Below are positions 408 to 17,923 of a stretch of DNA of 24,972 nt, in pieces. Location: positions 1-24,972 of IMG/VR virus record IMGVR_UViG_3300047457_000793, one strand, 5' to 3'. The DNA comes from a virus. The translations under genes and the position numbers were made by a program. Under the pieces are notes generated by a model. That model did no database searches. It was not told the origin of the DNA and was given only the letters and a program-made list of their open reading frames with translations. Each line of letters opens with the position of its first letter. The stretch's first letter is position 1.

Positions 408-422
408 AAGTCGTTTTGTTTG

Positions 423-743: not shown

Positions 744-745
744 AT

Positions 746-774: not shown

Positions 775-787
775 ATGTCGTTTTGTG

Positions 788-970: not shown

Positions 971-1074
971 CGTTCGTCCCCTCGTTCGTCGTTTGGTTGT
1001 CGTTTACTTGCCACACCCATATCATACAATCATTTTCGGAAAGTGCAACCCCAAATCTGAAGTATTTTCCGAAA
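971..1074 (-). promoter_or_regulatory. Cassette promoter-operator B
   Basis: Minus-strand -35 TTGCAC (1048-1043), 16-bp spacer, -10 TATGAT (1026-1021). TTTCSGAAA palindromes lie at 1034-1042 and 1066-1074, 32 bp apart. It shares most bases with promoter A, including the stretch around the -10. The conserved leader lies between it and the ATG at 970. Confidence 0.7.
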
Positions 1075-1075
1075 A

Positions 1076-1100
1076 TAAAAACCCCCGGAGTTTCCGGGGG
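1076..1100 (-). terminator. Rho-independent terminator after the 76-aa gene
   Basis: The minus-strand hairpin CCCCCGGA-AAC-TCCGGGGG has an 8-bp perfect stem and is followed by TTTTTATTTTC. It sits between the 76-aa gene and promoter B. Confidence 0.8.
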
Positions 1101-1113
1101 TTTCGGGGGCGGG

Positions 1114-1344
1114 TCAGGTTGCGTTTGCCGCATCCCACTTTTGCCCTTGCAGTTCCAGCCACCGCATCTGACATTCCTGCACTGCATCCCTGACTGCGTC
1201 CACCATGCAACCATAGCTGCCGTCTGCCCTCCACAGTCGCTGAATCCGAGTGATTGCCGCTGCACATGCGGCCTGCGTTTTGTAGCCCGGTGCTGCAGCC
1301 TGAATTTTGCGGGCTTTCTCAACTACTCGTGGTGTCGCCTTCAT
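1114..1344 (-). CDS. 76-aa hypothetical helical protein (cassette gene)
   Basis: ATG at 1344-1342 follows the conserved leader CGAACGAGGGGAACGACG. The protein begins MKATPRVVEKARKIQAAAPG, is basic and predicted mostly helical, with two Cys in the second half and a Trp-rich end. No family is recognised; a small nucleic-acid-binding role is possible but unsupported. It has its own promoter (1345-1445) and terminator (1076-1100). Confidence 0.6.
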   Translation of the reverse strand: MKATPRVVEKARKIQAAAPGYKTQAACAAAITRIQRLWRADGSYGCMVDAVRDAVQECQMRWLELQGQKWDAANAT

Positions 1345-1445
1345 CGTCGTTCCCCTCGTTCGTTTGTTTGTCGTTCACTTGCCACGTCAGGATCATACAT
1401 TCATTTTCGGAAAGTGCAACCCCGAATCTGAAGTATTTTTCGAAA
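1345..1445 (-). promoter_or_regulatory. Cassette promoter-operator C
   Basis: Minus-strand -35 TTGCAC (1419-1414), 16-bp spacer, -10 TATGAT (1397-1392). The spacer palindrome at 1405-1413 is intact. The upstream copy (about 1437-1445) has a changed centre, so one operator half may be weakened. Confidence 0.65.
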
Positions 1446-1447
1446 AT

Positions 1448-1471
1448 AAAAAACCCCCGATTTCTCGGGGG
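1448..1471 (-). terminator. Rho-independent terminator after the 83-aa gene
   Basis: The minus-strand hairpin CCCCCGA-GAAA-TCGGGGG has a 7-bp stem and GNRA tetraloop and is followed by TTTTTT. Hairpin and T-tract recur at 4581-4604. Confidence 0.8.
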
Positions 1472-1484
1472 TTTCGGGCGGGTG

Positions 1485-1736
1485 TCACTTGCTTGCCCAG
1501 CCAAGCGACTCGACCGGCAGTGCCATCCACTCTGTGTAAGCCGCAGCCGCCATTGCTTCGCAGAACCGTGCCCAGCCGCTCGCGTCTTCCAGCAGTGCCG
1601 ATCGTCGTGCAATCTGTGTGCACAGACGGAACTGCTGATACTTGACTCGGCAGTTCTTCGTGCTCATTGCTCTTGCATAGCATCGCTTAAACAGCTCCAG
1701 TTCCTTTGTTTCGTATTCTGTTGTCGTTGTCGTCAT
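1485..1736 (-). CDS. 83-aa hypothetical protein (cassette gene)
   Basis: ATG at 1736-1734 follows the leader CGAACGAGGGGACAAGACG. The protein begins MTTTTTEYETKELELFKRCY: a Thr run, then an alpha-helical, charged body with four Cys and a Trp/Met-rich end. No family is recognised. It is driven by promoter module D (1737-1836). Confidence 0.6.
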   Translation of the reverse strand: MTTTTTEYETKELELFKRCYARAMSTKNCRVKYQQFRLCTQIARRSALLEDASGWARFCEAMAAAAYTEWMALPVESLGWASK

Positions 1737-1836
1737 CGTCTTGTCCCCTCGTTCGTTGTTTGGTTGTCGTTCCGATGCGTGAACTATACTTTCATTTTCG
1801 GAAAGTGCAATGGCAATTCTGAAAGATTTTCCGAAA
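1737..1836 (-). promoter_or_regulatory. Cassette promoter-operator D
   Basis: Minus-strand -35 TTGCAC (1810-1805), 16-bp spacer, -10 TATAGT (1788-1783). TTTCSGAAA palindromes lie at 1796-1804 and 1828-1836, 32 bp apart. The stretch 1745-1811 is an exact 67-bp repeat of 4938-5004. Confidence 0.7.
1745..1811 (-). repeat. 67-bp perfect direct repeat, copy 1
   Basis: By eye, base-for-base identical to 4938-5004. It covers the leader, the -10, the spacer palindrome and the -35 of promoters D and F. The nearby terminators (1839-1862 and 5044-5067) also match. The repeats bracket about 3.1 kb holding the glycosyltransferase-methyltransferase and four small genes. Confidence 0.9.
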
Positions 1837-1838
1837 AT

Positions 1839-1862
1839 AAAAAACCCCGCGTTTTCGCGGGG
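1839..1862 (-). terminator. Rho-independent terminator after the GT-methyltransferase gene
   Basis: The minus-strand hairpin CCCCGCG-AAAA-CGCGGGG has a 7-bp stem and is followed by six T. It starts about 10 nt after the stop codon of the fusion gene. An identical hairpin is at 5044-5067. Confidence 0.8.
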
Positions 1863-1871
1863 TTTCTCAGG

Positions 1872-3077
1872 TCATTTTGTTCGCCAGGCTATCAAATCAT
1901 CGTACCTGCCGGACTCTCTCCAGTCCTCGAACGTCCACCCGCCCTCCTGCGCGAATGCGTTCGCGTCCTCCTGCGATTGGATGTCCTCGACCACAAACAC
2001 CCCGCCCGGCCTCAGCAGCGGCCACAACTGCTCCACCGCGGCTTGCTGATGTGCCAACTGGTGGCTTCCATCGTCGATGATCAAATCGAACTGTTGGCCC
2101 TGTAATGCCTGCAGCACTGGCCCGAAGTCCGGCGCAGTCGCCACAATGACCGGCAGATCCGGGACCGCGTTCCTGTCCACCCCGATTGCCTCCACCGGAT
2201 AGCCCACGTGTCGCCATGCCCTCAGGGACGCTCCCCGGAATACTCCGACCTCCAGCACTCGGGACGGCTTCAGGGTCTCCACCAGCCCATCGTAAAACGA
2301 TCCGTAATTGTGCAGGGTGGTTTTGTCCGATCCTTCGTGCAACAAAGCCTGTGACAGCGTCAACGTGCCTGCAGCGGGTCTGCTACGGTGCGTCACGTAA
2401 TCCGGCGCACTCGGACCGCTCTCGGCAATCGCCCGGTCGACCGCTCGCAGATTGATCGGGATTCGCTCGCTGGGTATTCGTGGCAATCGCTTCCGCCGGT
2501 ATCTCCCCAGCGTGGGAGTAACAGCGTCACCGTGTCTGATCCAAATCCATCCGGGCTGATTGCTCACGACTCGATAAAGCCACTGCTCCGCGAACAGGTG
2601 ATGTTTCTGGTCATGCGGGGACTTCATCCCGTCTGTGACGATCGAGACGAATTGATTCCCCTTGTGGCTCCATGCGTACGCGCCCGATCGATAATAGACA
2701 ATCCCGTTCGGCCACAGCAACGCGACTTCCCCGAAGGACGGCGCAGCCGCATAGGTCAGCTCGCAAAACTCCCGGCACAAACAATCGTCATCATCCATGC
2801 GACTGACAACCTTCCGCCCCTCCGGCAGGTTGTAATTCTCGCCATACAGCCGCCACTCGCTGCGCAGCACCTGAATCACGTAACAGCCCGTCCCCCGGAT
2901 CAACTCAAGCCGCTCCGCTGCGTGCGGGTCGTCCGGATGTTGGGCGAGATGGACCACGGGTTTCCGGTTTTGCGCAGCAAGCGAAGGCACGCACGTTGTG
3001 CGGGTAATCGCCAGACGCCTCCGCGATAGCTCGGGATCGGTGTAAACGCTCTGGATTATCAGGATGTGTGGTGTCAT
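1872..3077 (-). CDS. Glycosyltransferase-methyltransferase fusion (sugar-modifying)
   Basis: A 401-aa protein from the ATG at 3077-3075; the longer frame from 3122 overlaps the previous gene. Residues 1 to about 210 look like a GT-A glycosyltransferase of the putative rhamnosyltransferase type, with VVSRMDDDD at 90-98 as the metal/nucleotide-sugar site. Residues about 250-400 are a class I SAM methyltransferase: motif I VLEVGVFRGASL (274-285), an acidic residue after the second strand (D301), DLIIDDGSH (331-339) and RPGGVFVVED (356-365). This resembles metal-dependent sugar O-methyltransferases of the MycE/TylF group. The inferred role is to add a sugar and O-methylate it, capping a glycan. 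It follows the 140-aa gene by about 14 nt and has no cassette promoter of its own. The fold calls are fairly sure; the substrates are not. Confidence 0.8.
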   Translation of the reverse strand: MTPHILIIQSVYTDPELSRRRLAITRTTCVPSLAAQNRKPVVHLAQHPDDPHAAERLELIRGTGCYVIQVLRSEWRLYGENYNLPEGRKVVSRMDDDDCLCREFCELTYAAAPSFGEVALLWPNGIVYYRSGAYAWSHKGNQFVSIVTDGMKSPHDQKHHLFAEQWLYRVVSNQPGWIWIRHGDAVTPTLGRYRRKRLPRIPSERIPINLRAVDRAIAESGPSAPDYVTHRSRPAAGTLTLSQALLHEGSDKTTLHNYGSFYDGLVETLKPSRVLEVGVFRGASLRAWRHVGYPVEAIGVDRNAVPDLPVIVATAPDFGPVLQALQGQQFDLIIDDGSHQLAHQQAAVEQLWPLLRPGGVFVVEDIQSQEDANAFAQEGGWTFEDWRESGRYDDLIAWRTK

Positions 3078-3091
3078 GTTGTTCACGGTCC

Positions 3092-3514
3092 TCACAACTC
3101 CACTTTCATTTTCGCCACCCAATCCGGGACAACACTGGACGGCTGCTGCATTGCGGCCTTTACCTGCGCGAACACCTCACGCGCGTGCTGAATGCGGTCC
3201 TCCTGTGACATTTCACGCCACGATCGTGTTCCGATTTGCCGATAGAATCCCTGCATGATTGCCACCTGCGCCTGTGCCGACCAATTCAGCGGCTGATGCA
3301 CGCGGTCCCAACACTCCATGTTGCTGCGCAGCCCCAGCAGCACGAAATCCGCATGTTGCACCAATCTTGCCGCGGCCATCACCTGCGCTGTGCACCACAC
3401 GCCAAACGGCTGTGATTCCTGCGCGAAAAAACACGCGCTCAATCGGTCAAACGCTGCGTGCAAATATGCCTCAGCCAGCGCTACGTTTGTTTCGTCATCG
3501 ATGTTCACAGTCAT
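3092..3514 (-). CDS. 140-aa hypothetical protein
   Basis: The start chosen is the ATG at 3514-3512 because a strong terminator lies at 3535-3562 and any longer frame would run through it. The protein (MTVNIDDETNVALAEAYLHA...) is mainly helical, with a middle segment rich in aliphatic and aromatic residues and a C-terminus ending VAKMKVEL. No family is recognised. The purine-rich GAGGGG is almost adjacent to the ATG, an unusual spacing. No cassette promoter precedes it; only a short remnant of the leader (GGCAAGTG...GAGGGG) remains. Confidence 0.55.
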   Translation of the reverse strand: MTVNIDDETNVALAEAYLHAAFDRLSACFFAQESQPFGVWCTAQVMAAARLVQHADFVLLGLRSNMECWDRVHQPLNWSAQAQVAIMQGFYRQIGTRSWREMSQEDRIQHAREVFAQVKAAMQQPSSVVPDWVAKMKVEL

Positions 3515-3534
3515 CCCCTCTTTCACTTGCCGCC

Positions 3535-3562
3535 AAAAACCCCGGCAGACATTCTGCCGGGG
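3535..3562 (-). terminator. Rho-independent terminator after the 91-aa gene
   Basis: Arms CCCCGGCAGA and TCTGCCGGGG (3553-3562 and 3540-3549) form a perfect 10-bp stem with a 3-nt loop, followed by TTTTT. This is one of the strongest hairpins in the window. Confidence 0.85.
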
Positions 3563-3576
3563 TGTTGTGTTCGCCT

Positions 3577-3852
3577 TCATTTGCACTTTGCACTCTGCAG
3601 CAGTTTGTGCAGGGTGGCGGTTCCAGCCAAATCGCTGTAGCGGCCCATCAGTGCAATGTCGTTTTCCATGCCGCCCAGATCGCGGGTGATCAGAACGCAG
3701 CACTTGCAACCGTGGTGAGTGTACAGAGTGGCGTCCTCGTAACGTCCGAAGGTGTATTCCTTCTTCACTTCACCGCCATGCGTCGGGCACTCTTCGCTGT
3801 AGCTTGCTGCCAGAATTTCAGTCACACCGCTGTTTGCTGTCGTTGTCTTCAT
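3577..3852 (-). CDS. 91-aa Cys/His-rich hypothetical protein (cassette gene)
   Basis: ATG at 3852-3850 follows the conserved leader (CGAACGAGGGGACAGGGCA); the longer frame from 3897 lies in the leader. The protein begins MKTTTANSGVTEILAASYSE. It has CPTHGG near residue 22 and HHGCKCC near 46-52, which together could bind one zinc ion. No family is recognised. It is driven by promoter module E and ends in a strong terminator. Confidence 0.6.
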   Translation of the reverse strand: MKTTTANSGVTEILAASYSEECPTHGGEVKKEYTFGRYEDATLYTHHGCKCCVLITRDLGGMENDIALMGRYSDLAGTATLHKLLQSAKCK

Positions 3853-3959
3853 TGCCCTGTCCCCTCGTTCGTTTGTTTGTCGTTTCACACTTGCCACACG
3901 TCAGAGTCTACTATTGTTTTCGGAAACTGTAAAGCCCCGTCTTGAAAGATTTTTGGAAA
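3853..3959 (-). promoter_or_regulatory. Cassette promoter-operator E (diverged)
   Basis: Minus-strand -35 TTTACA (3933-3928), 17-bp spacer, -10 TAGACT (3910-3905). The spacer palindrome at 3918-3926 is intact, but the upstream copy is degraded (TTTCCAAAA). It is the most diverged of the six modules in this window. Confidence 0.55.
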
Positions 3960-3986
3960 ATAAAAAACCCCCGCAAAATGCAGGGG
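3960..3986 (-). terminator. Rho-independent terminator after the 97-aa gene
   Basis: The minus-strand hairpin CCCCTGC-ATTTT-GCGGGGG (7 bp with one G-U pair) is followed by TTTTTT. It lies about 40 nt beyond the stop of the 97-aa gene. Confidence 0.7.
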
Positions 3987-4026
3987 TTTCGTTGGTGCGG
4001 GCCGGCGTGCGGGGTTCACCGCCTAC

Positions 4027-4320
4027 CTATTTCGGGGGCTGAAATTCGTACCCTGACCACGCCAGCCCGCACACAATGCTTCCCAATTCGGCCAGCAGGC
4101 TGACGCCGTAGGCCACCAGCACCTTTTCCGATACGTCTGCAGCCTCACGCCCCTCGGCTGCTGCTGCCATCTTCGCAGCAACCTCAACTACGGTGTCGTA
4201 ATGGTCGAAACCCTGCTCCTTAAAATGCTGTTCTGCGTGCTTTGCGGTATGCCGGAACAATTCCAGCAGGGCGGCGCATCGTGCCTGATGTGCTTCGATG
4301 TGATGTGCGATTACAGCCAT
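4027..4320 (-). CDS. 97-aa hypothetical protein
   Basis: ATG at 4320-4318 has a good ribosome-binding site (GGGAG six bases upstream); the longer frame from 4545 covers the repeat-rich regulatory region and is rejected. The protein (MAVIAHHIEAHQARCAALLE...) is His-rich and helical at the N-terminus, followed by an Ala-rich helix and a hydrophobic stretch near residues 70-85 that could be a weak membrane segment. No family is recognised. Its upstream region differs from every other cassette. Confidence 0.6.
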   Translation of the reverse strand: MAVIAHHIEAHQARCAALLELFRHTAKHAEQHFKEQGFDHYDTVVEVAAKMAAAAEGREAADVSEKVLVAYGVSLLAELGSIVCGLAWSGYEFQPPK

Positions 4321-4580
4321 GTTCGTCTCCCGTGAAAAAAAACACTGTCCCGGTGTTACATATGCTCCGAATCGTGACCGGTGCGCGCGGTTGCCACAAG
4401 ATTTGTGGCATTGCCACAAGATTTGTGCGCGGTCCCTATTTGGAGAGCTACGCGAAACGGGCGCGACCTGACGGCGGGCCGGCAGGATTTCCGCCAGATT
4501 TCCGCAATTGCCCCTATCTGGAGAGCTACCCGGAAGTGCTGGCAAGTGACGAAGGATTCTGGGAAAACTTGCCAGAAAAT
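4321..4580 (-). promoter_or_regulatory. Repeat-rich leader/regulatory region of the 97-aa gene
   Basis: The region holds three kinds of ordered repeats. TTGCCACAAGATTTGTG occurs twice with a 20-bp period (4391-4407, 4411-4427), each copy built on the palindrome GCCACAA-GAT-TTGTGGC. CCCTATYTGGAGAGCTAC occurs twice, 78 bp apart (4434-4451, 4512-4529). CTGGCAAGT and ACTTGCCAG form a perfect inverted pair (4539-4547, 4567-4575) next to the neighbouring terminator. Near the ATG, AACAC-N7-GTGTT followed by a T run could be a weak attenuator. No clear sigma70 promoter is seen. Confidence 0.5.
4391..4427. repeat. Tandem palindromic sites
   Basis: Two copies of a 17-bp sequence are separated by three bases (20-bp period). 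The first contains a perfect 7+7 palindrome with a GAT centre; the second has lost the last two bases of it. Spacing of about two helical turns suits cooperative binding of a dimeric regulator. Confidence 0.7.
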
Positions 4581-4604
4581 AAAAAACCCCCGATTTCTCG
4601 GGGG
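4581..4604 (-). terminator. Rho-independent terminator after the 103-aa gene
   Basis: The hairpin CCCCCGA-GAAA-TCGGGGG is followed by TTTTTT on the minus strand. Hairpin and T-tract are the same as at 1448-1471. Confidence 0.8.
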
Positions 4605-4617
4605 TTTTGGGCGGGTG

Positions 4618-4929
4618 TCAGGCGACTCTTGCCCACAGCTTGTCAGCCATTTTTGCGAGGTTGTCAGCACCCCCGGCAATCTCTCGTGCCGTCCGTCCGT
4701 CGTATGGTCGTGGCACCCGCAGCGGCTCGCCGCTTGCAACGAATCCCGTCAGCACTGAACCGTACTCAACCCACCACCCGAAATACTTGAATACGTTGTG
4801 CGCCCATCGCTCGTCGCGGCTCAAAACGCTCAGCACGTCCTGCTTTTCAACACTGGCGTTGCCGAACTGGCAGAAGATTGCTGAACTGATTCCGTTGATG
4901 CACTTTTCCAGTGGGTCGATGTTTCGCAT
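4618..4929 (-). CDS. 103-aa hypothetical protein (cassette gene)
   Basis: ATG at 4929-4927 follows the conserved leader (CGAACGAGGGGAAACGACA). The protein begins MRNIDPLEKCINGISSAIFC, with a helical first half, an aromatic centre (FKYFGWWVEYG) and a helical C-terminus. No family is recognised. It is the first gene of the island after the glycosyltransferase cluster, driven by promoter F and closed by the terminator at 4581-4604. Confidence 0.65.
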   Translation of the reverse strand: MRNIDPLEKCINGISSAIFCQFGNASVEKQDVLSVLSRDERWAHNVFKYFGWWVEYGSVLTGFVASGEPLRVPRPYDGRTAREIAGGADNLAKMADKLWARVA

Positions 4930-5028
4930 TGTCGTTTCCCCTCGTTCGTTGTTTGGTTGTCGTTCCGATGCGTGAACTATACTTTCATTTTCGGAAAGTG
5001 CAATATGGATTCTTCAGACTTTCCGAAA
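4930..5028 (-). promoter_or_regulatory. Cassette promoter-operator F
   Basis: Minus-strand -35 TTGCAC (5003-4998), 16-bp spacer, -10 TATAGT (4981-4976). TTTCSGAAA palindromes lie at 4989-4997 and 5020-5028, 31 bp apart. Over 67 bp it is identical to promoter D. Confidence 0.7.
4938..5004 (-). repeat. 67-bp perfect direct repeat, copy 2
   Basis: Identical to 1745-1811 and 3193 bp away in the same orientation. Recombination between the copies would delete the intervening genes and leave one working promoter. Confidence 0.9.
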
Positions 5029-5043
5029 ATAAAACCAGAAAAT

Positions 5044-5067
5044 AAAAAACCCCGCGTTTTCGCGGGG
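5044..5067 (-). terminator. Rho-independent terminator ending the late operon
   Basis: The minus-strand hairpin CCCCGCG-AAAA-CGCGGGG is followed by TTTTTT. It lies about 30 nt after the last gene of the glycosyltransferase cluster and before cassette promoter F, so it probably marks the end of the long late transcript. Confidence 0.8.
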
Positions 5068-5099
5068 TTTCGGGCGGGTCATTTCGCCGGCCAGCCACC

Positions 5100-5828
5100 T
5101 CACAACTGCAGCGGCTGCAACTCCACTCGCTGCATCAGATTTGACGGACTGCAGCCCCACAGCACCACGGCCGGAAACGGAAACACGCCGCTCCGGTACA
5201 CGTCCGCTGGCAAATTCACACTGCTGCCGTCTGCCGCGTCATACGACTGCCAGCAAACGTACGGCGTCGGCGGGTCCAGCGATTGCGGGGCAGAGCGCGG
5301 AAACATCGACCACCGCCTCAGATCGTCTCCCTCAGTAATTGTGGGTCTGCCGGCCACTGGTGGATTCTCAGGCGGCTCCGCAAACTGTGCACCCGGCGGC
5401 AGGTATTCGTTCGCCTGAATCGTGTACAATTTCCCCGCCCACTTTGGGTGTTCTCGCCCGCTCCCGAACCAGAAAAATCCCGCCATCGAATCCGGTGCAG
5501 CCGTCTGGTTTCGCCGCACGCAAAACTGCCAATTGTAAATGTCGCGAAATATCCTATTGCCTTTCTCCGGCCCCTCAGTCGCGATTAGATCCGCCAGGAA
5601 TTGCTGGTCAGCATAAGGTGCCATGTAACCAACAGTCTGTAATACGCGGCGGCAGACGTCGATTAACACGCCGTCAGAGTATACACCAATCGTGTAGGGT
5701 ACCCCGATTGCGTCAAAACATCCGCGGTTGGTGAGTGCCACCGAAGGTGCCATGGGGTCATCCAGCCCGCCAGGATGCAGCCATCCCGGCATGGGATTCC
5801 ACGGATTACAAATTGTTGAGGCGTGCAT
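5100..5828 (-). CDS. 242-aa protein of unknown function in the glycosyltransferase cluster
   Basis: The start chosen is the ATG at 5828-5826, preceded by CAGGTG, which overlaps the previous gene by 23 nt; an ATG at 5795 is an alternative. The longer frame to 5984 lies over a clear glycosyltransferase and is rejected. The protein begins MHASTICNPWNPMPGW. It contains SDGVLIDVCRRVL (51-63) and DQQFLADLI (74-82), the latter like the DQ-x-FL element near the acceptor site of several GT-A enzymes, then an aromatic stretch and a Pro-rich C-terminal half. I do not recognise a family. Its position last in the cluster suggests glycan transfer or acceptor recognition. Confidence 0.65.
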   Translation of the reverse strand: MHASTICNPWNPMPGWLHPGGLDDPMAPSVALTNRGCFDAIGVPYTIGVYSDGVLIDVCRRVLQTVGYMAPYADQQFLADLIATEGPEKGNRIFRDIYNWQFCVRRNQTAAPDSMAGFFWFGSGREHPKWAGKLYTIQANEYLPPGAQFAEPPENPPVAGRPTITEGDDLRRWSMFPRSAPQSLDPPTPYVCWQSYDAADGSSVNLPADVYRSGVFPFPAVVLWGCSPSNLMQRVELQPLQL

Positions 5829-6564
5829 AGAGCACCTGCGTGTAGGTGTCGAGTTGCGGGACCAGACAGGTAATCCATTCGCGGCCCAGCTGCTGCCGGT
5901 CGTTGTTGCGGTACCAATTGCAATCACCGGGACCGTCGGCGAGTGATTGCCCGTGGTAATGGTTGGTGTTCCAGCGGAACACATAGGACGGCGGCGCGAA
6001 CTGGCAGGGGTCCACGAATCGGCCAGCGGCGGAAAAGTGGGTCATCATCTGCTGATCAAAATTCGCCTGATCGGTCAGCGGCCATCCGCCGCGTTCTGCC
6101 CAATGTGTGCGGCGGAATGCAATCGATCCGTGAAACCTGCCGTCAGCGGCTTCCTCGATGTGCTGCCCGAGACCGCAACCGTAATCACTGAGCACCCGAG
6201 ACGGCTTCGAGAAATCGCCATTCCGCAGCGCTGCCACGTGGGCCATCGTGTGGTGTGGCAGGAATGAGTCATCATCCTCCGCCACGATAATCACGTCATC
6301 GCCTGACTCAACCTCACAGAGCCCCGCCAGTGCGTTGAATTTCGCGGGCAGGCTATTGAATCTCTGCCCGATTGAAATCATCTGCCAGCGGTCTCCACGA
6401 CACGCTGGTGAGTATTGGCCAGCATCATCCAGAATGATCAACTGCAATCGCTCCGGCGGATACTGTTGAGCGAGGAAACACGCAATCAGATTCGGCAACG
6501 TCTGCGGTCTGCAATAGGTTGGTGTGATCCATGTAACGCGTGGCAGAATCAATTCATTTTGCAT
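5806..6564 (-). CDS. GT2-type glycosyltransferase (EDDD motif)
   Basis: A 252-aa GT-A fold enzyme. Visible are an N-terminal nucleotide-binding segment (TWITPTYCRPQTLPNL, 11-26, then LIILDDA, 42-48) and the DxD metal site VAEDDDSF (95-101). These are typical of family 2 glycosyltransferases, which move a sugar from a nucleotide-sugar to an acceptor in the cytoplasm. The ATG at 6564 has GGGA seven bases upstream and overlaps the preceding gene by 16 nt, so the genes are coupled. There is no signal peptide or membrane anchor, so the acceptor is probably a soluble protein or glycan rather than a lipid-linked one. Donor and acceptor are unknown. Confidence 0.85.
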   Translation of the reverse strand: MQNELILPRVTWITPTYCRPQTLPNLIACFLAQQYPPERLQLIILDDAGQYSPACRGDRWQMISIGQRFNSLPAKFNALAGLCEVESGDDVIIVAEDDDSFLPHHTMAHVAALRNGDFSKPSRVLSDYGCGLGQHIEEAADGRFHGSIAFRRTHWAERGGWPLTDQANFDQQMMTHFSAAGRFVDPCQFAPPSYVFRWNTNHYHGQSLADGPGDCNWYRNNDRQQLGREWITCLVPQLDTYTQVLYARLNNL

Positions 6565-7205
6565 TTTAACATCCCGCTCCAGTGTGTTCCGTTTTGGTGA
6601 TCCGGTCGGCTCAAATAGTGTGCGTGATCGGGTGGCAGGTTATCGACGTCCAGATACCACGGCAGATGCCTTGCCGGGGCCAGCCAGCAGCGTTCCGCTG
6701 GATAATATCCACGCCAGTCTGGCGTGCGATAGATTGCCAGTGTGGTGTCGATGTCCGCAGCGTAAAAGCCTTTGATCGTCGGGTTCTGCCAGAACTGCTC
6801 TTCATGCGCCTTGACCTTCGCGGCCAGTGGTGTGTCTGGCAAATCATGCAGCGACAATGCCGAGCCCACTTTGATCAATTGGGGCTGGCTCCTCAGGCGG
6901 TCCAGCATGATCTCGATTTCATCGCCCTGCCAGTGGTTGATGTCCAAGTCCCCATCAGTGACCAGATAATACGGCGGGGAAACCTGATGTGAAAACCGCT
7001 CCCAATAGGCGCGGCAACCGTGGTTTGCACCGTACGAAACCGCAATTCCACCGCTCAGTTTTGAATATGCCTCCAGCAGTGGCGGGTAGGTGGAATTGCA
7101 ATCCAAGATCCAAACGGAACTGATGGTTTTAGACTGCCGCAACTTCTCTGCCAAATCGATCGCAGACATTAAATCGCGACTAGTGATAAATGCCGGGATT
7201 CTCAT
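6549..7205 (-). CDS. GT-A type glycosyltransferase (DGD motif)
   Basis: A 218-aa protein from the ATG at 7205-7203, with GAGG five bases upstream; the longer frame to 7268 overlaps the previous gene and lacks a supported start. It begins MRIPAFITSRDLMSAIDLAE. YLVTDGDLDIN (80-90) is the DxD metal-binding element of a GT-A fold. Before it lies WILDCNSTYPPLLEAY (32-47), the segment after the first strand. It lacks the long C-terminal part of many GT2 enzymes and is short, so it may be a minimal transferase. It sits between the GalNAc-T-like enzyme and the EDDD enzyme. Confidence 0.8.
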   Translation of the reverse strand: MRIPAFITSRDLMSAIDLAEKLRQSKTISSVWILDCNSTYPPLLEAYSKLSGGIAVSYGANHGCRAYWERFSHQVSPPYYLVTDGDLDINHWQGDEIEIMLDRLRSQPQLIKVGSALSLHDLPDTPLAAKVKAHEEQFWQNPTIKGFYAADIDTTLAIYRTPDWRGYYPAERCWLAPARHLPWYLDVDNLPPDHAHYLSRPDHQNGTHWSGMLKCKMN

Positions 7206-7212
7206 CGCAACC

Positions 7213-8136
7213 TCAGCAGAACAGAGACAGTGGCGGATAGGCGACGGGATTCGCGGCCAGTGTGGCAAATTGAGCAGCGGTCAGGCGGCCATCGCGAGAT
7301 TCTGCCAGCCCTGTGTCCTCGTTGATGCCGTAGACATAATGGTTCCGCAGGCGCTCAAGACTGAGCCCCAATTCCTGATGTCCCAACATGAAGTTCCGCA
7401 CCTTACCATGCAGTGACAGCGGAGACTTTCGCCCGCCAACTGGGTCCCCGAATCGGTGTTGCCACAGCAGATCCGGAATGCAGATGCAGCGTCTGCCAGC
7501 TTGCCGGAATTTTGTGTGGATATACCACTCCTCACCGCCAAACTCGCGGAAGTGCGGATTGAATCCCAGCCATGCGTCCTTGCGGCAACTGAAGAGCCCC
7601 AGCCCCATGGCGGGAATCTCCAGCGGCTCAGGGTTATCGAGAATCCTCTTATCGATGCCCCAAATGCCCCACATGCCATCACGCCAGACGTCATCAAAGT
7701 GCGTGTATACAGTGGCCAGACTATCCAGCAGCAGCGGACCAGATAGGAGGTCCATGCAGTCGGGGTTTCGCGTGTAATAATCCAGCAGCGAAAACACCGC
7801 ATCGGGTGCCAGCAACACATGCGAATCCATCACCAGCACAGCGTCACCAGCAGCCTCGCGAAAAATCCTATCGCGTGAGGCTGATGTGCCCTGGATTTCT
7901 CCGAACGGAATCCACCGCGCAGCGAATGGGTGTCCCGGCTTGCCCGATCGAATCCCCACGTTGATGTGGTCAAACAGCCCCTTCGCCCGTTGCCCGCATG
8001 GTGAGTCTGGAGCGTTGTCGATGCAGATCAGTTCCACCTGCGGCATAACCTCAGCGTGGTACATTCTCAGGGCGTTTATTGAGAAATAGAGCCCATCGAA
8101 ATCATTGTGTGTGGCAAAGCCTATTGTGAGTTTCAT
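7213..8136 (-). CDS. Glycosyltransferase resembling polypeptide GalNAc-transferases
   Basis: A 307-aa GT-A enzyme. The metal site is DSH (104-106, in AVLVMDSHVLL), not the usual DxD. It is followed by a central segment with IWGIDKR (158-164) and IPAMGLGLFSCRKDAW (174-189), then FGGEEWYIHTKFRQAG (199-214) and a late His in LLWQHRF (223-229). The order DSH, GGE and late His is the pattern of animal polypeptide GalNAc-transferases (GT27) and GT2 relatives with a galactosyltransferase-like C-terminal segment. The gene starts inside the stop of the Thr-rich tail gene (ATGA at 8136-8133), which ties its translation to that gene. I infer transfer of a first sugar to Thr/Ser of virion proteins. The fold is certain enough; the acceptor is not proven. 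Confidence 0.85.
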   Translation of the reverse strand: MKLTIGFATHNDFDGLYFSINALRMYHAEVMPQVELICIDNAPDSPCGQRAKGLFDHINVGIRSGKPGHPFAARWIPFGEIQGTSASRDRIFREAAGDAVLVMDSHVLLAPDAVFSLLDYYTRNPDCMDLLSGPLLLDSLATVYTHFDDVWRDGMWGIWGIDKRILDNPEPLEIPAMGLGLFSCRKDAWLGFNPHFREFGGEEWYIHTKFRQAGRRCICIPDLLWQHRFGDPVGGRKSPLSLHGKVRNFMLGHQELGLSLERLRNHYVYGINEDTGLAESRDGRLTAAQFATLAANPVAYPPLSLFC

Positions 8137-8981
8137 GGCGTTTCCGGTGGCGGTGTGCTAAATCCGATAGTGGTTGTGGTTGTTGGGTTCGCCGTCGTCG
8201 TTGTGCTCGTGGTCGTCGGTCCGGCCGTCGTTGTCGTTGTCGGACCAGTTGGTGCAGCGGTGGTGGTTGTCGTGGGCTGGTAAATGATCCCGCTGTACTC
8301 TTCATAGATTCGCGGTTCAATCGCCCCGATCATTAAGCCGAGCCCCTGAGTGTACCAGCCTAACGCCAGTGCACCCGCAGCGATTCGCGGGGATGTTGTG
8401 CGGTTGACCAGGCACCAGCAGGGAAACACCATCGGGGCAACGGACAGCGGAGATTGCGAAACACGCAATACGACAGTGTCCAGAGTTCCGGCAGTCAGCG
8501 GAACAGTAGTGAGCCCGCTAAATCGCTCCGGCAACGAAACAAACCAGCGGCCGGGATAGTACGTTTCGCCAGTCGCTACCGTGTCTGTAATCGTGCCGCC
8601 AGTGACCTTACAAATGTCACGCAATGGCTGCGGGAGTGCGGCCCGAAATTGCACCGCTGTTGCGTTAAACGGAATCGGCTCAGACTCTACGCCATTCCAT
8701 GCAACCCGGAATGTGCCCGGCTGTACTTGTCCTGCATTGTAAGCGGCGGGATAGCCGATCAGGCAAACGTCGTAACTGTAGGGGTAAGCGGCGTCGACGA
8801 TCATCGGAGCGTAACGCCCGAGGGTCCACCCCTCAGGCGCTCGCAGGATCATCAGCGGAATGGCCTCGGCTCCACCGCCGGCAGAGAACTGCGGGCCACT
8901 GATCGCAACCCGCTTCCACCAGTCGACCAACTCGTTGAATGGCCGGCGGTCATTCGGTTCGATGCCAAACAGATCAGTCAC
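8133..8981 (-). CDS. Tail-associated protein with a mucin-like Thr/Pro C-terminal tail
   Basis: A 282-aa protein from a GTG at 8981-8979 with GGGGGT about seven bases upstream, closely following the 952-aa gene. Residues about 88-165 (PGTFRVAWNGVESEPI...) form one copy of a domain repeated in the 952-aa protein. Residues 236-271 are a low-complexity tail of four PTTTT-type units about ten residues apart: 23 of 36 are Thr, with Ala, Pro and Gly between. The Thr codons are mixed (ACA, ACC, ACG), so the tail is not simple DNA slippage. Such tails are classic O-glycosylation substrates in mucins. The context suggests a surface-exposed tail-tip or fibre component. It overlaps the GalNAc-T-like gene by ATGA. 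Confidence 0.75.
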   Translation of the reverse strand: MTDLFGIEPNDRRPFNELVDWWKRVAISGPQFSAGGGAEAIPLMILRAPEGWTLGRYAPMIVDAAYPYSYDVCLIGYPAAYNAGQVQPGTFRVAWNGVESEPIPFNATAVQFRAALPQPLRDICKVTGGTITDTVATGETYYPGRWFVSLPERFSGLTTVPLTAGTLDTVVLRVSQSPLSVAPMVFPCWCLVNRTTSPRIAAGALALGWYTQGLGLMIGAIEPRIYEEYSGIIYQPTTTTTAAPTGPTTTTTAGPTTTSTTTTANPTTTTTIGFSTPPPETP

Positions 8982-8984: not shown

Positions 8985-11843
8985 TCACCCCCGAATCGTC
9001 GCCACTCCGGACACCGTCAGTTGTCGCATCAAGATCCGGCCGGCGTTTTTGGTGAGTGTCGTGAGTGCCACCGAACCGCCAACCACCAGCCCGTTGTTTT
9101 GCTCCAGCGTTCCAAGTGTCACGGACTCGCCATCAAATGCCGCCAGCCCGAGCTCGCCCGAAATCACCTCAGCTGTTGCGCTGGTATTGCTGACCAGTGC
9201 ACAGCAGGCAGCCTTGTCCGTCTCGTTGCTGCTGCCCGTTCTCACCACTCGCAGTGTACCGGCGGAAATGCCAAGATCAAGGCGAATCAAATCAGATCCG
9301 CGGCCCAGCCCATTGCCGATCTCAGCGGCGGCGGACGACGGAACGCCAATCATCAAATACCGTGGCAGATATTCCACCGCGTTTGCGGTCGTCCGCTCGC
9401 TGCGTCCCAGCTGTGCCGTGTAGGCTGCAGCAACACGGAAGGATGAAACCTGCAGCCCACAGTAAATCACGCCAGAGCCCGCGCTGGTGATCGTGATCGC
9501 GCTGCCGGTTGCTGTCGCTGACAACTGGAATGTTCCGGCCTCGTTGTCCGAATCCAGAACGTAGTAATTGGTGCCGGCGGACAGCCCACCCGGCAACGTG
9601 CCAGTGGACTGCAGACGCACAATCTGACCGGTCCGAAGATCATGCCCGCCCGAAGCCCGCAGGCGATTCAGCGAGCCCAGCGGCGCGGCAGTTGTGGTGG
9701 TCGTGGAACTGGTGGTGGTTGTCGGCAGTGGTGTGTAAATCACCTCGACCGTAACCGGCACCCACTGGCGCAGCCCGTACCGAATATCTCCGGCGGCGTT
9801 ATCGATTGTCACGTCGTCCGTAGCCCCAGGCAGTCGCCCCAGAGTCCAGTTTGTCGGGTCCGCCCAGTTCCGCGGTCCAGTGGCTCGCTGAGTGACTGAG
9901 ACCGTGGCTACAGTGGAAATGTCGATTGCGTTCTGAGTGATCGAAAATGCCGGCAGCAGTTGGCTGGACAGCCCACTGGTGAACGTAATCAGGTAACTCG
10001 TGGAATCGCTGGAGTACGTCACTACCACGTTGTCCACACTGCCAATCGCCGGCAACGTGGCCAGCAGTGTCCGCAGCGACGCGGCAGACGTCCCCACAGC
10101 CACATAGAGCGGGCCCTGAGTGCCGAAGGACAAATAGAACCCGCCAGAGACTGCAGAGCGGCTGACAGCAATCGTGGCGGTCTGCGTGCGTGCCACAACG
10201 TGACTGCGATACACACTGGCGGACCCAGTGCCATTGCCTCCCAATGCAACCGCAGTCGGGACTGGCAACACTCGCGTTTTCTGGCTGGCAGCGTATGTCA
10301 CCAGCCATGGGCTGGCTTCCGTGCCAGATCCCGTGACTGATGTTCCACTCCCGATCAATCCATCAAACTGAGCCTCTACGGTCGCGGCTGAGGCGTTCCA
10401 CGCGATTGCTGCCGTCAGACCCTCAGGCAGTGTCAGTTTGAAAGTGCCGGAGCTTGTGCGAGCCGGCACTGAGATTGCGTGCACGGCACCCGATGCGGAG
10501 CTTCCAGCGTCGTTGATTTTGCGGAGTGTGCCAGTGCCACCAACCTGACGCAAGCTGCCGTCGATTGCAGCTGCTGCGAGGTTCGTTGAATTGTCAATCA
10601 GGTGCACCAGCTGTGGGTGGTAGAATGACCCCGGAGCGTAGGAGGCGGCACCCCACGTCTCGGCGTTGCCGATGTGCTTTCCCACAATTCCAAGGAAGTC
10701 GCTGAAGTCGCTGAGGTCATTGAGGGCGTTTGCGGCAGCAGCAGCCACAGCGGCATAGGCAGCGTTTGCCGTGCCGTTACTGTAATCTGGCTGAATGGTC
10801 CCGCCAGCGTTTGTGATCGTTGTCTGACGGCCCTGGTATTCCAGCGTGATGCTGTTGCCGGTCGTGAAGTCCAGCAGAAAATGGGCAGCGTATCCGCGGT
10901 TTGCGTTGCTGCCGAAATCCGTCGATACCGACAACTGCGCCGTCGGGTTGTTCAAGATTTTGAGTGCCGTTGCACCTACTACACTGCTGATCGAAATCGA
11001 GGGCCGTGAAGCGGACGTGTAGCCGGTAAAGTCCAGCACATAGTGCGCACCGCGGACCCCGTCACCACTGGCCAAGATTCCGCCGTATACCTCCACGTTG
11101 TTTGCCGCCAGTGATTTGACGATTTGCCGAACGCGAGCGATGCCGTCATCAGATCGCACGGTTGCGGAATTGCCGTCGATTGTCAGACTGAATGAGGAAT
11201 CGGCCTCCACGCCCAGCATCCACACGTCATGCGGTCCCGCCTTGTACGGCGTCTGTTCTCGGACGTTAACCACTCTGCCATTCTGCAGCGTGCTCGCGTC
11301 CATCACCACCGACACCGGAGCAGCGGCCAACTCGCCAATCCATTCCAGGTAAATTTCATCTGCCGTGGACGATCGGATTGTTGCGGATGCCGTTTTCCCC
11401 GTTGCCCCAGCAATTGCCGTCAGCAGACCAGCAGCATCGCCGTAGGTGATCGCACTGGTAATCACGCCGTTGATCGTCAGTTTGTACGTACCCGCGCGAG
11501 CCCCATTGAAACTCAACAGCGTGATTTGATTAACGGGTGTGGCCCCGAAATCGTTGCTCACTGTGACCGTCGGGCGGACGGCCATCGAAATGATGAAATC
11601 GTCATCGTCCGGACCGGCGGCCACAACGTCCTGCCCATCGGCAGTGAATGCGATGTTGGCGAATTCCGGGGCGCCAGAATCCTGCAGCGTCTGGGCAATC
11701 GTCGAGGCGTTCCACGTGCCGAATTTGAACACTCTGGACCCGCAACTGATCTCCACCTCCACCAGTCCGGCAGTACCCGGAGACAGCAGGCGGAGAACCT
11801 TCGGCTGCGGCAGTGCGTCACCGCGGAATTTATTCAGTGGCAT
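8985..11843 (-). CDS. Large multidomain tail protein (952 aa)
   Basis: The ATG at 11843 has GAGG six bases upstream and starts eight bases after the previous stop. The body shows at least five diverged copies of a beta-rich domain, recognisable by (G)T-x-[KR/S]-[LV]-x-[LIV]-x-G at about residues 25, 117, 216, 466 and 566, each followed by a helix rich in Ala/Leu and a strand ending in an F-T-G-like turn. At about 658 is NWADPTNWTLGRLPGATDD, a motif common in secreted beta-structured proteins. At about 705-720 a PTTTTSSTTTTTAAP linker leads into a domain with GHDLRTGQIVRL and LPGGLSAGTNYYVLD (about 734-770), widespread in phage tail and fibre proteins. Probable tail-tip or side-fibre protein; exact role unknown. 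Confidence 0.75.
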   Translation of the reverse strand: MPLNKFRGDALPQPKVLRLLSPGTAGLVEVEISCGSRVFKFGTWNASTIAQTLQDSGAPEFANIAFTADGQDVVAAGPDDDDFIISMAVRPTVTVSNDFGATPVNQITLLSFNGARAGTYKLTINGVITSAITYGDAAGLLTAIAGATGKTASATIRSSTADEIYLEWIGELAAAPVSVVMDASTLQNGRVVNVREQTPYKAGPHDVWMLGVEADSSFSLTIDGNSATVRSDDGIARVRQIVKSLAANNVEVYGGILASGDGVRGAHYVLDFTGYTSASRPSISISSVVGATALKILNNPTAQLSVSTDFGSNANRGYAAHFLLDFTTGNSITLEYQGRQTTITNAGGTIQPDYSNGTANAAYAAVAAAAANALNDLSDFSDFLGIVGKHIGNAETWGAASYAPGSFYHPQLVHLIDNSTNLAAAAIDGSLRQVGGTGTLRKINDAGSSASGAVHAISVPARTSSGTFKLTLPEGLTAAIAWNASAATVEAQFDGLIGSGTSVTGSGTEASPWLVTYAASQKTRVLPVPTAVALGGNGTGSASVYRSHVVARTQTATIAVSRSAVSGGFYLSFGTQGPLYVAVGTSAASLRTLLATLPAIGSVDNVVVTYSSDSTSYLITFTSGLSSQLLPAFSITQNAIDISTVATVSVTQRATGPRNWADPTNWTLGRLPGATDDVTIDNAAGDIRYGLRQWVPVTVEVIYTPLPTTTTSSTTTTTAAPLGSLNRLRASGGHDLRTGQIVRLQSTGTLPGGLSAGTNYYVLDSDNEAGTFQLSATATGSAITITSAGSGVIYCGLQVSSFRVAAAYTAQLGRSERTTANAVEYLPRYLMIGVPSSAAAEIGNGLGRGSDLIRLDLGISAGTLRVVRTGSSNETDKAACCALVSNTSATAEVISGELGLAAFDGESVTLGTLEQNNGLVVGGSVALTTLTKNAGRILMRQLTVSGVATIRG

Positions 11844-11851: not shown

Positions 11852-12874
11852 TCAGGTAAACAGCAGATTGAAATCGAGTTTGCGCGGGATCAGATATTTG
11901 ACGAAATGCAGATCAGATTTTTCCAACTTTTGCTTCAGCACCCATTCATATTGCGGAGTTTCGTCGGGTGGCGCCACGTTTTTGTATTCACGAATTTGAT
12001 TTCCGTCTTTGTTGAGCGGAACCGGCTTTTGCACCGCTTTGCCGGCGGAGTCTGTTGCTGGCCTGCGGATCTCCTGAGTGTATGCCAGAATCTTTCGCGG
12101 CTGGCCAATCAGCGTTTGCTCCCATGGTGCATAAATTGGTTTCGGCGGAAAGTACTCGGTGAGTCCCTGATTCAGGTATTCGCTTCGCCACGTTGATTCG
12201 CGATACATGAATTGCAGCGGCATTTCGCGGTATTCGATTTCGCGTCCGTCAACCTCTGTGTACTGCGGAAGTGACAGCCGGATGCCTCGCATTTTGAGCG
12301 TCTCAGGTGCAGCGATAAATCCGTCCAGTTCGACCGGGTCAGAGTTCACGCACACGTGCGCGAACTGCCCCAGCCACTGCGGAATTTGCGTGACGTATCG
12401 CGTTCCGGAGAACACCAGAATCTGTTCCTCGCGAACGATGCCAATCAGCGCTTCGCCGGCGGTGTTTACCAGTGGGTTGCCCTCGCCGTCAATCTCGGCC
12501 GGCACCTCGTCAAAATCCGTTTCCACCTCGAATTTCAGCGGGCGCCGAAGGGGGTTCGGGTCGCTGGTTGTCCCTCGTCCGGTGCCAACTCTCAACACCA
12601 ACTCAACTACCGCCTGGCAGTGCTCACTGTTGGCGATTTTTTCGATCTTCAATCGCTCGACGTAGTATCCGGTTGAGCGGTAAATGCCCGGCGACAGATC
12701 CGGAAACAATGAGGCGCAGAGGTCCTCAGACATATCCGCTTGATCGGTCAGGCAGATCAGATTCCAGTATTCTGTTACGCGGCGTTCTGGCGTTCCGTCC
12801 TGAGGATACGTCAGTTCCCCATCTCGCTGGTGTGCCAGTTCTCGCCGCCAGAGTCTTGCCTGTGGCAGTGCCAT
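11852..12874 (-). CDS. Tail-tip/baseplate candidate (340 aa)
   Basis: The ATG at 12874-12872 overlaps the tape-measure stop (TAATG) and has GGGAG nine bases upstream. The protein begins MALPQARLWRRELAHQRDGE, is mixed alpha/beta, and has no signal peptide or membrane segment. I do not recognise a family. The gene directly after the tape measure in siphoviruses normally encodes the distal tail protein or another initiator of tail-tip assembly, so that is the likely role by position only. Confidence 0.6.
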   Translation of the reverse strand: MALPQARLWRRELAHQRDGELTYPQDGTPERRVTEYWNLICLTDQADMSEDLCASLFPDLSPGIYRSTGYYVERLKIEKIANSEHCQAVVELVLRVGTGRGTTSDPNPLRRPLKFEVETDFDEVPAEIDGEGNPLVNTAGEALIGIVREEQILVFSGTRYVTQIPQWLGQFAHVCVNSDPVELDGFIAAPETLKMRGIRLSLPQYTEVDGREIEYREMPLQFMYRESTWRSEYLNQGLTEYFPPKPIYAPWEQTLIGQPRKILAYTQEIRRPATDSAGKAVQKPVPLNKDGNQIREYKNVAPPDETPQYEWVLKQKLEKSDLHFVKYLIPRKLDFNLLFT

Positions 12875-15066
12875 TACTTGCGACTCCCTCTAATCACCAC
12901 AGCGTTGTTTCGGGTTTCGCGTCTGGTCCGCTCAAACTCGTCCTCCAGAGTGCCCTCAAGAGACTTCACAGCGTCCGTGGTCTCATCCTGTGCTGTTTGT
13001 TGGTTGAGTGATTCGTAAATCGCTCGCTGACCTTCCTGCGTGCGTTTGTCCACGGCGTCAACAAATGCCGCCCGCTCCTGCTGCACCGCTGCAACATTGC
13101 GGCGTACCTGATTCGCCAATGTCGTGCCAGGTGACGTCGGTGTGCCAGGTTGTGGCGGCTGCGCTGCAGGTGACTGCTGCTGCTCTGCCTTCAGATCCTC
13201 GCTGCGTTTTTTTGCCTTGTCTACGGCCTCCTGCATTTCCAACTGGACAGACTGAATCTCAGCGGCGTATGCCTTGCGTTCTGCCTCATACGCACTCTGC
13301 CGCTGGTCCTCCTCGTCTCGCACCATCTGATTTAATTTTTCAGTGTTGGAGATTCGTTGCGGCACCTCGCGGCCCACAAGCCGATTTGCCCAGTCGGTCA
13401 GTTCCTGAATCTTGTCCATCACCATTGCCACAGCGGATGCCGGAGCGTTGACAATATTCGACCACAACTGAGCCCAGATCTCGCGGATTGTGATCCCCAT
13501 TTCATTCATGCCCGCGCGGATGTTGATCATGCCCATCCGGATCGCGGCCCACGCGGCTGCCATGGCCAATTCCAGAGCACCCTGCAAATCTCCGGATCGG
13601 ATCATGTCCACAATCTGCGTGTAGGCTGGCCCGAACGTGGTCAGCATAGTTTCTGCCATGCCTCGCAGGTTCACGTCAGCCCCCGCAATCGCGACGCCAG
13701 CAGCAGCGAGTACCACGGGGATTGCAATCCACGGATTGAGCATCAGCGTCACCGCGGAGCCCAGCAGACCAGCGGCAGCAGTGGCCACTGAAAACACCAT
13801 GCTCACAGCACCCACGGCAGCCCCAGCAACTGAGGCTATCACCGACAGAGCGGACAGGATTTTCGCCAAAGCAATCAGCGCCACTCCCGCACCGAACACA
13901 ACGGCTGTGGTTTTGAGTGCGTAGACGATCAGTTCCCCATTTTTCGCAATCCAATCTGTGACTCTGCCAGTGGCCTCGGTAATCCACGTGCCCAGCTGCT
14001 CCAGCGTCGGCGCTAACGCCGTGCCGATCGCAATTGCGGCACCCTCAATCGCTGACGTGAACCGACGCCACACGCCACCGGGGCCTGCGTCCATTTCCTC
14101 AGCGGTTCTCTGTGCGGTTCCACCGGCGTTCTGGAGCGCAGCAGAAAGCTGCTGTGTGTTGGCAGCTGTGTTTGCGATTACCGTTGCGCCGGTGATCCCG
14201 AGCAGCCCGAATGCCTCGTTCATTTTGGCGATTCGCTCACCAGCGGGCAGGTTGTTTGTGGCTGCGGCGAGTTCGGCCATGACCTGCACCATCGGGCGGA
14301 GATTGCCAGCAGCGTCGAGAAATTCGACGCCAAACAACTGCCGCATTTTGTCCGCCTCGGCGGCGGTAATCGTGCCAAGTCGGCGGAGTGCGGTTCCGGC
14401 GTTTGTGCCCTGAATCCCGACGTTGCCCAGCGTTCCGAGAATTGCCACCGTATCCTCAAGCGACATCCCCAAATCAGCAGCCACCGGACCAGCGTAACTG
14501 AGGGCCTCGCCCAACTGCTCTACGCTGTTGAAGGTGGCGTTTGCCGCCAACGTCATCACGTCAGCCACACGGGTTGCGTGCTCTGCACCCAGCGAGAACT
14601 GGCGGAGTGTGGCGGCCATGATTCCGGCGGACATCACAGCGTCTGTGCCCGATGCCCGAGATAGATTCAGCACCGCCTCCGTCATCGTGTCGATTTCGTC
14701 GACATTGAATCCGGCTTTGCCAAGCTCACCCATCAACTGAGCGACCTGCACCGCAGTGAATGAGGTCGTGCGGCCCAGTTCCAAGGCAGTGTTCCGCAAT
14801 CGCTCCAGATCGTCGCCAGTGGCCTGTGACACCGCACCGGTCATTCGAATCGCGTCGTCAAACGCAATCAACTGAGCGACGGGCAGAGCGGTTGCAGCAA
14901 GCCCACCGAACCCGGCAGCAAATGCTGTGCGTCCGATATTCTGTACCCGCGCCCCAAACTGCCTTAGACGGCGTTCTGCCACCGTCAAACCGCGCTTCAG
15001 TGGATTATCTTCGAGGAAGAATTCCACAAACGCGCGGCCCGCTCTGACTGATCGACTGGACGCCAC
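12874..15066 (-). CDS. Tail tape measure protein
   Basis: A 730-aa protein from a GTG at 15066-15064 with GAGG seven bases upstream, nine bases after the frameshift-frame stop. The N-terminal half contains the conserved tape-measure region of the TP901/PhageMin_Tail type: LIAFDDAIRMTGAVSQATG, then LELGRTTSFTAVQVAQLM, then GLLGITGATVIANTAANT. A long hydrophobic part (about 385-475) could insert into the host membrane during genome delivery. The C-terminal part is a charged coiled coil rich in Gln, Glu and Lys. By the usual ruler rule its length would fit a tail of roughly 110 nm. The position after the tail chaperone is standard. Confidence 0.93.
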   Translation of the reverse strand: MASSRSVRAGRAFVEFFLEDNPLKRGLTVAERRLRQFGARVQNIGRTAFAAGFGGLAATALPVAQLIAFDDAIRMTGAVSQATGDDLERLRNTALELGRTTSFTAVQVAQLMGELGKAGFNVDEIDTMTEAVLNLSRASGTDAVMSAGIMAATLRQFSLGAEHATRVADVMTLAANATFNSVEQLGEALSYAGPVAADLGMSLEDTVAILGTLGNVGIQGTNAGTALRRLGTITAAEADKMRQLFGVEFLDAAGNLRPMVQVMAELAAATNNLPAGERIAKMNEAFGLLGITGATVIANTAANTQQLSAALQNAGGTAQRTAEEMDAGPGGVWRRFTSAIEGAAIAIGTALAPTLEQLGTWITEATGRVTDWIAKNGELIVYALKTTAVVFGAGVALIALAKILSALSVIASVAGAAVGAVSMVFSVATAAAGLLGSAVTLMLNPWIAIPVVLAAAGVAIAGADVNLRGMAETMLTTFGPAYTQIVDMIRSGDLQGALELAMAAAWAAIRMGMINIRAGMNEMGITIREIWAQLWSNIVNAPASAVAMVMDKIQELTDWANRLVGREVPQRISNTEKLNQMVRDEEDQRQSAYEAERKAYAAEIQSVQLEMQEAVDKAKKRSEDLKAEQQQSPAAQPPQPGTPTSPGTTLANQVRRNVAAVQQERAAFVDAVDKRTQEGQRAIYESLNQQTAQDETTDAVKSLEGTLEDEFERTRRETRNNAVVIRGSRK

Positions 15067-17921: not shown

Positions 17922-17923
17922 AG

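Follow-up and report, generated by a model that had tools for sequence, protein, structure and literature searches.

A candidate phage cassette for glycosylation of threonine-rich virion proteins by a GalNAc-transferase-like enzyme

Why would a phage place glycosyltransferase genes directly behind a late gene whose product carries a long threonine-rich region? The question is raised by IMG/VR virus record IMGVR_UViG_3300047457_000793, a linear record of 24,972 bases that we analyzed as a whole and refer to as the window. On its minus strand, positions 5100–8981 hold a run of genes in the order p282, GT307, a 218-residue protein, a 252-residue GT2-type enzyme, and a 242-residue protein. An earlier sequence-only reading of this DNA had proposed a mucin-type O-glycosylation system, in which the first enzyme modifies the threonines of the protein encoded before it. 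Our comparisons of sequences and predicted structures support that proposal, with the activity, the sugar, and the modified sites putative. We read the run as a virion O-glycosylation cassette in which GT307 would act on threonines of p282, and we place the probability of this reading at roughly 0.72.

The proposed acceptor region of p282 is a Thr/Pro tract. The sequence-only reading had its length and threonine count right; 11 further residues (IGFSTPPPETP) follow it before the stop. It was also correct that p282 and GT307 overlap by ATGA: the p282 stop overlaps the GT307 start codon at 8133–8136. The 17 window proteins examined contain 8 runs of at least four threonines, where shuffled sequences would give 0.13, and a chance origin of the tract was rejected on this ground. 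DNA slippage was rejected as well. The threonine codons of the p282 tail are mixed (10 ACG, 7 ACA, 6 ACC, and 2 ACT), and the tract therefore looks as though it is kept at the protein level rather than as a slippage repeat.

Conservation tells the same way. The whole cassette recurs in six other virus contigs, in the same order and directly after a threonine-rich p282, with GT307 at 67–85% identity. In these relatives the N-terminal domain of p282 is 63–94% identical, while the length of its tail varies from ∼50 to ∼130 residues, the threonine tract expanding to ∼100 residues in L006 and L007. A variable tail behind a conserved domain is as expected of a repeat that is kept for its composition. 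A TTTT stretch is kept at once in the same four structural proteins of all six relatives: in p282 and in three further PTTTT-bearing proteins of the window that the sequence-only reading had not listed, namely the tail tube protein, a 130-residue protein, and the large protein p952. The C-terminal TTTT of the tail tube and the threonine tail of the 130-residue protein are present in all relatives, and the internal motif of p952 in 6/6.

GT307 is the candidate initiating enzyme. The DSH, GGE, and late-histidine pattern first noticed in its letters is confirmed as DSH at residues 104–106, FGGEE at 199–203, and His227 within WQHRF. Residues D104, H106, E203, W225, and H227 are invariant across 14 divergent members of the GT307 family, in which the DxH, GGEE, and WxH motifs are conserved. 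The DxH motif and the third histidine align with GalNAc-T10, one of the polypeptide N-acetylgalactosaminyltransferases (GalNAc-Ts); in GALNT1 the metal-binding residues are Asp209, His211, and His344 (PMC4202792). At the position of the Gal/GalNAc-T motif, FGGEE aligns to WGGEN, a related but not identical sequence. The N-terminal half of GT307 passes PF00535 (GT2, Glycos_transf_2) at 1.3e-6, with 28.8 bits against a cut-off of 23.3. When GT307 alone is compared with the PDB, the sole sequence matches are GalNAc-T10 and T7, at E 0.53. A profile search with its close relatives brings GalNAc-T7/T10 to E 0.0014–0.0035, and a profile of the divergent family reaches T10 at 1.5e-4; in that search, the matches covering the stretch from DxH through GGE to the late histidine are T10, T7, and T4.

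The predicted fold points in the same direction. The AlphaFold model of GT307 has a predicted local distance difference test score (pLDDT) of 89.6 and a predicted template modeling score (pTM) of 0.90. The comparison with GT27 structures that the sequence-only reading had suggested came out in its favor: the top 50 PDB matches are all polypeptide GalNAc-Ts, at E 1.3e-14 to 8e-12, and include human T1, T2, T4, T7, T10, and T12, fly PGANT9, and Toxoplasma T3. GalNAc-Ts also appear in the fold list of the neighboring 218-residue protein, partly since many such PDB entries exist. Thus, what counts is how strong and how uniform the GT307 list is, not the mere presence of GalNAc-Ts. The list of the 218-residue neighbor is mixed, at ∼1e-5, and a search of the BFVD viral models with GT307 gave one phage protein of the same family at 4.5e-24 and a next best match at 4e-12. 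From these two contrasts we conclude that the fold match of GT307 exceeds a generic GT-A match. GT307 ends after the catalytic domain, with no Pfam match to the C-terminal ricin-type lectin domain, and because this domain is absent we call the enzyme GT27-like and do not claim membership of GT27.

Beyond the close relatives, we surveyed the pairing from the enzyme side with a divergent family alignment, A6, as query. The virus collection yielded no fewer than 585 relatives; the survey used the nearest 80. A threonine-rich neighbor was defined as an open reading frame (ORF) with at least 13 threonines in 30 residues, lying upstream within 4 kb, and only loci with 1.5 kb or more of DNA upstream were counted. 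Such an ORF was present in 39/64 loci retrieved by glycosyltransferase sequence alone, in most cases within 120 bp. At control loci, a threonine-rich neighbor was adjacent in 2/553 genes and within 4 kb in 9/553. A nonredundant set of 86, which also takes in some loci retrieved by way of PTTTT, contained 41 with an adjacent threonine-rich neighbor, 12 with a near one, 25 without, and 8 that could not be classed. After clustering at 70% identity, 28/38 informative clusters were threonine-associated, and the trait changes at least nine times on the glycosyltransferase tree. The 53 partners fall into 39 groups once their threonine tracts are masked, a count that may be inflated because some partners are little more than repeats. 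The survey of relatives proposed in the sequence-only reading is thus positive. Its expectation that such a pair of substrate and enzyme would be unusual did not hold, since the pairing recurs in dozens of unrelated uncultured phages.

Starting from the motif instead leads to the GT307 family again. We scanned DNA for PTTTTTAAPTTTT irrespective of codon choice and without reference to any glycosyltransferase, which gave 107 stretches; in 105 of them the motif lies in an open reading frame. PF00535 was found above cut-off in 31/99 PTTTT contigs, compared with 6/50 control contigs with Pro-Ala repeats. Where a contig held both PTTTT and PF00535, the enzyme lay within 3 kb in 16/32 cases against 8.8 expected by random placement, and enzymes close to a PTTTT gene almost always followed it on the same strand. 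Many of these nearby enzymes proved, when their neighborhoods were read, to be members of the GT307 family itself, which occurs in 10/80 PTTTT contigs and 0/50 control contigs. Two other features were noted. The PTTTT proteins of L135 (G080) and L139 (G026) are followed by another cassette, consisting of a 'MKNLRYI' protein of ∼320 residues and then glycosyltransferase-like genes from outside the GT307 family. Small proteins of ∼114–116 residues, with a C terminus bearing PTTTTTAAPTTTT at residue 97, recur in many virus contigs (L019, L029, L031, L049, L051, L058, L069, and others).

Several observations weigh against our reading. In a marine phage clade of 19 tree rows, the enzyme gene sits between those for terminase and portal, with no threonine-rich ORF in the available DNA. 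Three copies in a Schlesneria metagenome-assembled genome (MAG) lie in nonphage surroundings without a threonine-rich neighbor, and some other unpaired members lie near replication-type genes. The sequence-only reading had named glycosyltransferase genes that occur independently of PTTTT-bearing proteins as evidence against itself; such independence is found for a part of the wider family. The unpaired members may have different protein targets or a different function. From the motif side, 68/99 PTTTT contigs have no PF00535 enzyme above cut-off in the available DNA, and most show no GT307-family member; therefore PTTTT alone does not predict the enzyme. As for GT307 itself, template modeling (TM) scores to the GalNAc-Ts are moderate, ∼0.6, at 13–21% identity, the lectin domain is missing, and with the divergent profile the N-terminal half of the family is matched better by general GT2 enzymes than by GalNAc-Ts. 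Finally, the 218- and 242-residue proteins are without an assigned role.

Three other explanations can be set against this evidence. The enzymes might modify host surface glycans of the O-antigen or capsule type, for instance to exclude other phages, with the threonine tails serving as flexible spacers. Phage GtrB-type O-antigen conversion enzymes are common, three matches of A6 members to PHROGs are weakly GtrB-like (0.004–0.007), and the resemblance of the N-terminal half to general GT2 enzymes would suit such a role. We nevertheless regard it as unlikely. By predicted fold, GT307 is much closer to peptide-acting enzymes than to GtrB. Every relative of the window has these genes in translational coupling with a late gene of the tail region, and the recurrent pairing with unrelated threonine-rich proteins is left unexplained. 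A second explanation, also to be doubted and somewhat more strongly, is that the pairing reflects shared position only: cargo genes and threonine-rich tail-tip proteins would both gather at the end of the tail operon, with no relation of enzyme to substrate. Many partners are indeed tail-region proteins, the PTTTT contigs without an enzyme are in keeping with this, and GT2 genes near PTTTT reach only about twice random placement. However, coincidence of position fits poorly with enzyme-partner gaps of mostly 0–40 bp, with partners so diverse in size that some are tiny and almost only threonine repeats, and with a motif kept in four proteins at once. A third explanation, in which the substrates of the glycosyltransferases are modified bases of phage DNA, is very improbable: virus-encoded glycosyltransferases that hypermodify DNA exist (cited in PMC12619734), and some distant members lie near genes that by eye look DNA polymerase- or recombinase-like, but in the window the cassette lies behind tail genes and no enzyme of base modification is seen, and the predicted fold matches peptide-acting enzymes.

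Under the O-glycosylation reading, GT307 would be a soluble GT-A enzyme that moves a sugar from a nucleotide donor onto threonines of p282. The sugar might be GalNAc by analogy with the enzymes that GT307 resembles. Further targets of GT307 would probably be the p952 loop and the short C-terminal PTTTT motifs of the 130-residue protein and the tail tube. The 252-residue GT2 enzyme, and perhaps the 218-residue protein and a separate glycosyltransferase-methyltransferase, would then extend or cap the glycan, leaving the phage tail, and perhaps the head, coated with glycans. The methyltransferase fusions of distant family members are in keeping with capped glycans.

The candidate extending enzymes differ in how well they can be placed. 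The 252-residue enzyme reaches PF00535 at 1.6e-4 and 22.1 bits, just below the cut-off of 23.3, matches GT2 profiles from the PDB at 6e-6, and stays beside GT307 in L002–L007 and L009–L012. The 218-residue protein matches no family; the core DGDL of its DGDLD motif is invariant across 7 relatives, and its AlphaFold model (pLDDT 81.9) has weak, mixed matches to GT-A enzymes and cytidine monophosphate (CMP)-sugar synthetases. Thus, where the sequence-only reading saw two more GT-A glycosyltransferases, one is GT2-type by profile and the other has only this mixed fold match. It rightly saw a coupled run with one protein of unassigned function: the 242-residue protein matches no family, and its PDB profile search gave chance-level matches only. 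The window also encodes a 416-residue glycosyltransferase-methyltransferase fusion, GT416, outside the run. We rejected it as a core member of the cassette because its glycosyltransferase half was not found in the relatives examined.

More distant members of the family give an indication of hosts. Relatives at 59–60% identity sit in Planctomycetaceae MAGs. In one of these, a tail module with a threonine-rich 979-residue protein and a glycosyltransferase-methyltransferase fusion adjoins host two-component and resistance-nodulation-division (RND) genes, and the same contig has a portal gene on the same strand. Host genes beside the tail module, together with the portal, therefore indicate an integrated prophage. 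Judged from these sequence relationships, the host of the window is likely a planctomycete. GT307-family enzymes in L010, L013, L016, and L018 end in a fused methyltransferase-like domain (PF13578 or RMNT_CmcI, the match in L016 being weak), at the place that the lectin domain takes in GalNAc-Ts, and two of the four also carry DUF6171. In L136 (1–1677, minus strand), a family member directly after a PTTTT protein is fused to a radical SAM domain (PF04055). The Schlesneria copies (L013, L014, and L015) are three near-identical glycosyltransferase-methyltransferase genes at contig ends, possibly a repeated element or host copies.

It is useful to compare the proposed cassette with known systems. 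With the eukaryotic polypeptide GalNAc-Ts (CAZy GT27), which in animals initiate the sugar chains of mucins, it shares the predicted GT-A fold, the DxH/GGE/third-histidine pattern, and threonine-rich putative acceptors. Unlike them, GT307 is phage-encoded, lacks both the lectin domain and an N-terminal membrane anchor, and has FGGEE for WGGEN. Among GT2 (PF00535) enzymes, which include GtrB-like phage enzymes, the likeness lies in the N-terminal half, whereas the C-terminal half, with GGEE and the late histidine, matches GalNAc-Ts. In Toxoplasma, the Thr-rich mucin-like cyst-wall protein CST1 is reported to be glycosylated by GalNAc-Ts (PMC5225312), and TgGalNAc-T3 is among the fold matches of GT307. 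That system belongs to the eukaryotic secretory pathway, whereas here a cytosolic phage enzyme would adjoin the gene of its putative substrate. Virion glycosylation by phage enzymes is already known. In mycobacteriophages, glycans are reported at the C termini of capsid and tail tube subunits (PMC12619734, citing Freeman et al. 2023; PMC11256854). Those phages likewise encode glycosyltransferases, and two of the PTTTT motifs here also lie at C termini. In our window the link to structural genes consists of a coupled run after the tail genes, kept in six relatives. A GalNAc-T-like initiating enzyme recurrently paired with threonine-rich virion proteins is found neither in the papers searched nor in PHROGs, where GT307 has no match at E 0.1 or better, nor by tblastn of GT307 and four relatives against 50,697 phage records. 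The literature search, which did not cover most subscription papers and preprints, gave no precedent for a phage GalNAc-T or mucin-like system.

The wider claim is that a large, unnamed family of phage GalNAc-T-like enzymes, each with its own threonine-rich virion protein, amounts to a counterpart of mucin-type O-glycosylation among prokaryotes, with densely glycosylated mucin-like tails, and that the eukaryotic GT27 fold has close phage relatives. We consider the odds of this to be about even. If true, mucin-type protein glycosylation would not be a eukaryotic speciality but widespread in uncultured phages, and the many PTTTT-type repeats of phage structural proteins that now lack an explanation would be accounted for. 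It would bear on the origin of GT27, and models of how phages adsorb, stay stable, and are recognized by immune systems would gain a glycan layer. For bacterial glycoprotein engineering, it would supply soluble enzymes of a single domain that come with their own acceptor tags.

Table 1. Features of the window, in the order of the late region, with the basis for each assignment
Feature	Position	Strand	Basis and remarks
Terminase	22382-24607	-	
Portal	20413-21996	-	
Protease-capsid fusion	18204-20435	-	
130-residue protein after capsid gene	17535-17927	-	C-terminal PTTTTPAP (17547-17561); adjoins protease-capsid gene; possible head protein and further acceptor
Tail tube protein	15970-16443	-	C-terminal PTTTTV (15976-15990); phrog_1407 major tail protein, 1e-4; possible further acceptor
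Tape measure	12874-15066	-	
p952, large tail-region protein	8985-11843	-	Internal PTTTTSSTTTTTAAP (9690-9725); PHROG tail matches weak; possible further acceptor
p282, downstream of tail genes	8133-8981	-	GTG start; C-terminal Thr-rich region; likely main acceptor
Thr/Pro tract of p282, PTTTTTAAPTGPTTTTTAGPTTTSTTTTANPTTTTT	8169-8276	-	36 residues, 23 Thr
GT307, 307-residue GT27-like glycosyltransferase	7213-8136	-	PF00535, PDB profiles, AlphaFold model, motifs; proposed initiating enzyme
218-residue protein	6549-7205	-	Motif, weak model matches; GT-A-like fold of nucleotide-sugar-binding type; might be another glycosyltransferase or a sugar-nucleotide enzyme
252-residue GT2-type glycosyltransferase	5806-6564	-	PF00535, PDB profile; EDDD motif; proposed extending enzyme
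242-residue conserved protein	5100-5828	-	Last gene of coupled run; kept in 6 relatives, 53-78% identity
GT416, glycosyltransferase-methyltransferase fusion	1872-3122	-	PF13578 8e-8; PF11316 below cut-off; outside main run; possible capping enzyme

The minus strand of the window as a whole is a siphovirus-like late region, which runs from terminase, portal, protease-capsid, tail tube, and tape measure to p952, p282, and the glycosyltransferase run. Two starts in that run were corrected because of the alignment with relatives, to 7205 (218 residues, not 239) and to 5828 (242 residues, not 294). Within positions 1–5100, at least five similar intergenic modules of ∼130 nt (658–785, 989–1116, 1360–1487, 1751–1878, and 4927–5083) each hold a G+C-rich hairpin that resembles a terminator. 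The modules separate small minus-strand ORFs of ∼80–170 residues and look as if every small ORF had a cassette of its own.

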